Assembly (NCBI GenBank): GCA_902521995.1
Contig: CABYTO010000001.1
Coordinates: 98,149 to 162,148 of the forward strand
Direction: 5' to 3'
DNA from: an uncultured Prochlorococcus sp.
GTDB taxonomy: Bacteria; Cyanobacteriota; Cyanobacteriia; PCC-6307; Cyanobiaceae
DNA: 64,000 nt
The notes beneath the pieces were generated by a model. The model searched no databases. It was not told the DNA's origin and saw nothing but the letters and a program-made list of their open reading frames with translations. The position numbers and the translations under genes were made by a program. Below, piece after piece: positions 58,632-59,933 of the stretch (positions within the stretch are counted from its first letter, which is position 1; each line of letters opens with the position of its first letter).

Positions 58632-58781
58632 AAATAAATAGTTACATGAAGATTAAACCAAATATTAACATAAACCTTTTTAGAGACTATTTATGAAAAA
58701 ATTTACCTAAGATAATAATTAAAAAAACATTAAATCTTCGTTTCTATTTGTAAAAGCTAGACATGCAGTTAAAAATACGCT

Positions 58782-58787
58782 TATAAT
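58782..58787 (+). promoter_or_regulatory. putative -10 element (TATAAT) for the DUF4278 transcript
   Basis: TATAAT about 7 nt upstream of a predicted transcript start that begins with a hairpin. Confidence 0.45.
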
Positions 58788-58793
58788 AATTTG

Positions 58794-58886
58794 GTAGCAA
58801 TCGCTACTTTTTCGTTCACCCTCAATTGAGGGCGCAGTTCGAGTCATACCATGGAACGGGGGATGGCCGTGTTGTCACATCGAAAC
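58794..58886 (+). ncRNA. structured 5' UTR; candidate glutamine-II riboswitch (Downstream-peptide motif)
   Basis: Hairpin GTAGC-AATC-GCTAC at 58794-58807; P1-like CGTTC (58813-58817)/GAACG (58854-58858); P2-like CCCTCAATTGAGGG palindrome 58819-58832 followed by CGCAGTTC; located directly upstream of a short ORF in a picocyanobacterium. Confidence 0.65.
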
Positions 58887-59060
58887 ATGACTACTTTAAC
58901 TTACAGAGGTAAAAACTACGTTCAAAACAAAGAAGCTGCTAAAAAGCAACTTGTTGAACTTACCTACAGAAGAAACGTATACACCAACAGAATGGATGAC
59001 GCTTCTTCAAGTAATGAAAAAGCAGAATTAAATTATAGAGGTGTTAATTACACTAAATAA
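58887..59060 (+). CDS. DUF4278-like small protein
   Basis: MTTLTYRGKNYVQNKEAAKKQLVELTYRRNVYTNRMDDASSSNEKAELNYRGVNYTK; start moved from 58851 to ATG 58887 because the upstream extension lies in the structured leader. Confidence 0.8.
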   Translation: MTTLTYRGKNYVQNKEAAKKQLVELTYRRNVYTNRMDDASSSNEKAELNYRGVNYTK

Positions 59061-59078
59061 TTTAATTAAACAAATTAC

Positions 59079-59107
59079 AAGCCCCTTTTTCAGGGGCTTT
59101 TTTTTTT
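59079..59107 (+). terminator. rho-independent terminator
   Basis: AAGCCCC-TTTTTCA-GGGGCTT followed by a long T run. Confidence 0.92.
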
Positions 59108-59138
59108 GGCTATATTTATCAAGAGCCCTTTAAAAAAC

Positions 59139-59933
59139 ATGTCTGAAAGTTGCTGTAATACAAACACATCGAATAAAGCACTTAATCAATTCGATCATAA
59201 AAATGCGATTCAAGAAAGATATGGCTCAGCCGCACAAGAAAAAGAAAGTTGTCTTTGTACACCAGTTGGGTTTAATCCCGTTTTACTGGAAGCAATTCCT
59301 CAAGAGGTTATAGAAAGAGACTATGGGTGTGGTGATCCAACAAAATATGTTCAAAAAAATGATATAGTTTTAGATCTTGGAAGTGGTAGCGGCAAAAACG
59401 CTTTCATTTGTGCCCAAATTGTTGGGAAAGAAGGGAAAGTTATTGGAGTTGATCAGAATCCTGACATGCTTTCTTTATCAAGATCAGCCTCTAAAGAAGT
59501 TACAAAAAATATAGGTTTCAACAATACAGAATTTCTAGAAGGTTCAATTGAAAAACTTGATGAATTAGATAAAGATTTAAATCCATTAATCGCAGATAAA
59601 TCAGTTGATATTATTTTAAGTAATTGCGTTTTAAACTTGGTAAGTCCAGAATCTAGAAATAACCTTCTAAATAACATAAAAAGAGTTTTAAGTGATAATG
59701 GAAGAATTGCAATTAGCGATATCGTCTCTAACAAAAAAGTTCCTTTAAGATTGCAAAATGATCATGATTTATGGACAGGATGTATTAGTGGAGCATGGTA
59801 CGAGCCAGACTTCATAAGTGATTTTAAAGAACTAGGATTTAAAAATTTAAAATTTGCAGAAAGGAGTGCTGAACCTTGGAAAGTAATTGAGGATATTGAA
59901 TTTAGAACAGTAACTTTAGTGGGCAATATTTAA
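59139..59933 (+). CDS. ArsM-like SAM-dependent (arsenite) methyltransferase
   Basis: DYGCGDPTKYVQKNDIVLDLGSGSGKNAFICAQIVGKEGKVIGVDQNPDML; Cys-containing SNCVLNL and GCISGA motifs; start set to 59139 because the track start 59106 lies in the terminator T run. Confidence 0.8.
   Translation: MSESCCNTNTSNKALNQFDHKNAIQERYGSAAQEKESCLCTPVGFNPVLLEAIPQEVIERDYGCGDPTKYVQKNDIVLDLGSGSGKNAFICAQIVGKEGKVIGVDQNPDMLSLSRSASKEVTKNIGFNNTEFLEGSIEKLDELDKDLNPLIADKSVDIILSNCVLNLVSPESRNNLLNNIKRVLSDNGRIAISDIVSNKKVPLRLQNDHDLWTGCISGAWYEPDFISDFKELGFKNLKFAERSAEPWKVIEDIEFRTVTLVGNI

Follow-up and report, generated by a model that had tools for sequence, protein, structure and literature searches.

Glutamine Riboswitches and DUF4278 Genes

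Type 2 glutamine riboswitches are restricted to marine picocyanobacteria, where they occur in multiple copies and mostly ahead of DUF4278 genes; in the Prochlorococcus example that was tested, glutamine switches expression ON (PMC6316151). Binding of L-glutamine is established for this Glutamine-II family (PMC6316151; PMC6698751). The leader was described earlier as the Downstream-peptide motif (PMC2864571) and the 33-aa version as Yfr6 (PMC1242208; PMC2518516). The pairing of riboswitch and DUF4278 gene is therefore known in kind.

The locus analyzed here lies in a 64,000-nt stretch of DNA from an uncultured Prochlorococcus sp. (the window). It shares with PMM1846 of Prochlorococcus MED4 the aptamer class, the P1/P2/pseudoknot layout, the DUF4278 product, the short single-gene unit and the promoter NtcA motif, which had been mentioned for PMM1846 (PMC6316151). 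Nothing essential differs between the two; the present work puts the NtcA box at about +1 to +14 and shows that it is conserved (102 of 111 loci). Like Yfr6 of Prochlorococcus MED4 and SS120, the window locus has a TATA element, a G start and a glutamine-II leader, and its short ORF opens some 97 nt into the transcript (PMC1242208); the product is 57 aa long with three repeats, against 33 aa for Yfr6. Another copy in the source genome, on contig C22, is Yfr6-sized (33 aa) with two repeats. Synechocystis gifB, which encodes IF17, resembles the model proposed below in its dual control by NtcA and glutamine and in its DUF4278 sequence (PMC6316151). It differs from the window locus in having a type 1 (glnA, RF01739) rather than a type 2 aptamer, an NtcA site centered at -7.5 rather than a box at about +1 to +14, and a longer product (149 aa) with an inhibitory part that the window protein does not have.

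Layout of the Locus

The 57-aa DUF4278 gene is a short, stand-alone monocistronic unit with the following features.

58758–58763, forward strand: -35-like promoter hexamer TAGACA, with an 18-nt spacer to TATAAT; the two match 11 of 12 consensus positions
58782–58787, forward strand: -10 promoter hexamer TATAAT, read from the sequence
58794–58807, forward strand: putative NtcA box GTA-N8-TAC, GTAGCAATCGCTAC, which could also fold as a 5-bp RNA hairpin; present in 102 of 111 homologous leaders
58810–58867, forward strand: Glutamine-II (type 2 glutamine) riboswitch aptamer, RF01704 at 66 bits (cut-off 33)
58813–58817, forward strand: pseudoknot 5′ strand CGUUC, pairing with 58854–58858 (pseudoknot helix of PMC6698751)
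58819–58832, forward strand: P1 hairpin CCCUC-AAUU-GAGGG, from the Rfam alignment, with compensatory changes
58833–58835, forward strand: linker-strand CGC, invariant in the comparison of 43 homologues; role according to PMC6698751
58843–58867, forward strand: P2, GUCAUACC (58843–58850) with GGGAUGGC (58860–58867), one A-G mismatch; Rfam alignment and covariation
58854–58858, forward strand: pseudoknot 3′ strand GAACG, from the sequence and the Rfam alignment
58887–59060, forward strand: 57-aa DUF4278 ORF (PF14105), stop included, with three Y-R-G/R repeats
59079–59107, forward strand: intrinsic terminator, an 8-bp stem (59079–59099) with five G-C pairs followed by eight T

Most of these elements had been picked out in a first-pass annotation of the sequence. 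Its TATAAT at 58782 is there, together with TAGACA at 58758, as are the GTAGC-AATC-GCTAC sequence near the transcription start (58794–58807), the CGTTC/GAACG complementarity (58813–58817 and 58854–58858) and the perfect palindrome, which is CCCTC-AATT-GAGGG at 58819–58832. The ORF it read from 58887 belongs to DUF4278 (PF14105, E = 6e-11), and its strong terminator corresponds to the stem at 59079–59099 and the eight T that follow.

The locus is flanked by a NifU-like gene on one side and an ArsM-like methyltransferase gene on the other, and synteny holds across this block in the six genus mates that were fetched (93–98% identity over about 2.1 kb). The ArsM-like arsenite methyltransferase gene lies directly downstream (window 59136–59933) and scores below the NCBIfam cut-offs. 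An unassigned 85-aa frame is found on the opposite strand at the NifU-like gene.

The Leader Is a Type 2 Glutamine Aptamer

When the whole window was searched with covariance models, RF01704 (Downstream-peptide, Glutamine-II) matched the leader with 66 bits, well above its cut-off of 33 (E = 1e-13), whereas RF01739 (glnA, type 1 glutamine) reached 22.2 bits and stayed below its cut-off of 35. The Downstream-peptide assignment, for which the first-pass annotation had proposed this covariance-model check, is thus borne out, RF01704 clearly passing and RF01739 failing. The window aptamer has the P1, P2 and pseudoknot helices, the invariant CGC linker and the GGAACGGG of the class. The annotation had also proposed a comparison of P1 and P2 across homologues: among 43 of them, 11 of the 13 P1/P2 pairs, including all P1 pairs, have changed on both sides with pairing kept. 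The homologous loci were collected with pseudoknot pairing as a selection criterion, so conservation of the pseudoknot among them is not independent evidence.

In the crystal structure of the class, the pseudoknot helix holds the ligand, and the CGC linker supplies a long-range C:G pair and a base triple at the ligand site (PMC6698751). The Rfam alignment and this structure identify CGUUC/GAACG as the pseudoknot helix and CCCUC/GAGGG as P1. The earlier assignment of CGTTC/GAACG to P1 is therefore replaced, and the pseudoknot that had been suggested between CCAT (58849–58852) and ATGG (58863–58866) falls outside the fold; it misreads the register of P2, in which 58843–58850 pairs with 58860–58867. 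By analogy with the family, these results support reading the window leader as glutamine-responsive.

The 5′ Hairpin as a Putative NtcA Operator

Upstream of the aptamer, GTAGC-AATC-GCTAC reads as a perfect GTA-N8-TAC, the recognition sequence of NtcA (PMC6316151). The same pattern lies within 45 nt before the aptamer in 102 of 111 distinct homologous leaders (about 1% in shuffled sequences), and in all 102 its distance to the aptamer is 3–9 nt, mostly 4–5. Over the whole window GTA-N8-TAC occurs 9 times against 6 expected, which is no enrichment, so the support for an NtcA box comes from its position and conservation and not from the match alone.

That position is fixed relative to the promoter (58794–58807 in the window). 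The most frequent place of a -10-like hexamer is 6–7 nt ahead of the box (74 of 102 loci), and transcription should therefore start at or next to the first G of the box. This assignment agrees with the mapped start of Yfr6, a guanosine after a TATA element with the ORF beginning at nt 97 (PMC1242208): with the box G counted as +1, the matching 33-aa locus has its ATG at nt 98 and the window gene at nt 94.

The same letters could instead act as an RNA element, either a stabilizer of the mRNA 5′ end or a part of the switch. A 5-bp stem can indeed fold at the inferred 5′ end, and the homologue L087 (GCAGC...GCTGC) has lost GTA/TAC but retains the five pairs. Across the loci, however, it is the GTA...TAC sequence itself that is conserved, beyond mere pairing. 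The two readings predict different outcomes only where one side of a pair has changed: in an RNA hairpin U-G is acceptable and C-A is not, but to a DNA site, which can be read from either strand, the two are equivalent. At the fifth, inner pair, 9 loci have C-A and 6 have T-G (6 and 6 when distinct boxes are counted); C-A is thus as common as T-G, which favors DNA binding over RNA folding, although the numbers are small. The element is moreover an exact copy of the published NtcA consensus, at the transcription start of a nitrogen-repressed family. We therefore regard an RNA element as unlikely, and the hairpin, which the first-pass annotation had treated as leader structure, is most likely an NtcA DNA operator that is not part of the switch, to judge from the retained GTA/TAC and the C-A combinations at pair 5. 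A terminator scan also lists the hairpin with its T-run (58793–58812) as an early terminator; this candidate was rejected, since most homologues are A-rich there.

The Synechocystis genes gifA and gifB are repressed through NtcA sites that overlie the core promoter (PMC6316151), and by analogy an NtcA site over +1 to +14 should repress in the same way. Yfr6 RNA falls on nitrogen depletion (PMC1242208). In the draft assembly (91% complete), no match to the NtcA gene reached the model cut-off; since 8 of 10 genus mates carry the gene, it probably lies in the missing part of the assembly.

The DUF4278 Protein

The 57-aa protein matches PF14105 at 42.9 bits (cut-off 25.3) over the full profile length (residues 2–55) and contains three (L)TYR(G/R)xxY repeats; its relatives have either two repeats (33 aa) or three (55–58 aa). 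It had no match in NCBIfam and none by sequence among solved structures, and no phage relatives of the protein or of the leader were found.

DUF4278 is the counterpart of the N-terminal part of IF17, a part that has been reported to be dispensable for inhibition of glutamine synthetase (PMC6316151). A profile search of the window protein found DUF4278 alone, the IF7-like inhibitory part of IF17 being absent. Thus a role as a glutamine synthetase inactivating factor, suggested by analogy, is conceivable, though its support is weak.

The original description of Yfr6 was of a non-coding RNA, and a type I toxin–antitoxin pair was once suggested for Yfr6/Yfr14 (PMC1242208; PMC2518516). By this precedent the window transcript could be a bifunctional or non-coding RNA with an incidental ORF, or half of such a pair. 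This is very improbable here, given that the ORF belongs to a Pfam family, that almost every collected locus has a DUF4278-like protein after the aptamer, and that changes among genus mates are mostly synonymous (the protein is identical or nearly so in six of them, with 1–3 synonymous and 0–2 non-synonymous changes). Translation from the AUG at 58851, within the aptamer, which is in frame with the DUF4278 ORF with no stop between and would give a 69-aa protein whose start codon the riboswitch covers directly, was rejected as having next to no likelihood, since this AUG is missing in 30 of 111 homologues, is in frame in just 24 of the 81 that have it (chance level; 8 of the 24 with an intervening stop), and nearly all DUF4278 starts align about 24–31 nt past the aptamer core.

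A Model with Two Nitrogen Sensors in Series

With a conserved putative NtcA box and a glutamine switch at one locus, the gene is probably gated twice. We consider it highly likely that the locus is a monocistronic DUF4278 microprotein gene under two nitrogen sensors in series, whose product is made in nitrogen excess. When nitrogen is scarce, NtcA bound to 2-oxoglutarate would occupy the start-site box (about +1 to +14) and block transcription, so that little RNA is made. When nitrogen is plentiful, NtcA would leave the box, and high glutamine would then permit expression through the type 2 riboswitch, the ON direction being taken from the literature. Given the conserved box at the start, 2-oxoglutarate and glutamine would be opposing signals on the same small gene. 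As for the expression platform, whose exact form we infer, glutamine would stabilize the pseudoknot helix and so free the start region for translation. The DUF4278 protein would accumulate in nitrogen excess and probably binds another protein of nitrogen assimilation; going by the analogy with IF17, the foremost candidate would be glutamine synthetase.

Pairing between the linker strand and the region before the start codon was considered as a universal OFF state and rejected. Matched partners pair slightly better than swapped ones (-5.8 vs -5.6 kcal/mol, p about 0.03 with relatedness ignored). Leaders of the UCGGACU and YWN types show strong pairing, but the commonest class does not, and neither does the window, where the locus's own linker/pre-start pairing is weaker than that with partners from other loci. 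With the aptamer clamped, the pre-start region opened in 48 of 111 leaders and closed in 3; forbidding pairs tends to produce opening by construction, so this outcome is not counted as evidence.

The window adds one more genome that confirms the published control design, in microproteins that belong to abundant marine phototrophs. What is added beyond the earlier report (PMC6316151) is that the 5′ hairpin is most likely an NtcA DNA site and that the box, at about +1 to +14, is conserved. The result is a sharper, testable promoter model for the DUF4278 gene.

Distribution and a Second Promoter Element

A second promoter element was found upstream of the NtcA box in other genera. GTA-N7-GAAC occurs 49–51 nt before the box in 59 of 111 leaders (L006 and 58 others; 0.13 expected from shuffles), and the consensus, TGTATC-N4-TGAAC-N-ACA, is centered near -40. 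The exact pattern has 21 occurrences in 121 genomes, and its reversed control has none. Fourteen of the 21 stand just before aptamers from the survey of family genomes; five of the remaining seven also have an aptamer after them, and two do not. Judging by these occurrences, the element appears almost confined to glutamine-II promoters. The window's genus has no recognizable copy, and a good -35 hexamer occupies that place; in the other genera an element ending in GAACnACA sits in the region of the window's TAGACA. As a tentative proposal, more doubtful than the two-sensor model, picocyanobacterial glutamine-II/DUF4278 genes may make up a small regulon in which three inputs are stacked. Two would be the NtcA operator at +1 and the glutamine riboswitch; the third, in genera other than the window's, would be a regulator not yet described that binds TGTATC-N4-TGAAC-N-ACA near -40.

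At least one Glutamine-II match is present in 126 of 201 genomes of the family. The source genome has four copies: the window's, one on C22 before the 33-aa DUF4278 gene, one on C4 with a short YRG-type frame after it, and one on C23. The C23 copy (L004) lacks an NtcA box, its linker strand, CGCAUGAAAU, resembles that of the crystallized RS01 aptamer, and the DUF4278 repeat is absent from the 56-aa protein that it precedes. In a distinct Glutamine-II group (L041–L046) the encoded 46-aa proteins have a single YRG repeat and a KRxHEAM tail; GTA-N8-TAC is absent before the aptamers of this group. Three further loci (L050–L052) have a Glutamine-II leader and an NtcA box before 56–58-aa proteins starting with MT(S/A)LYWNG, which are possibly divergent relatives of DUF4278.
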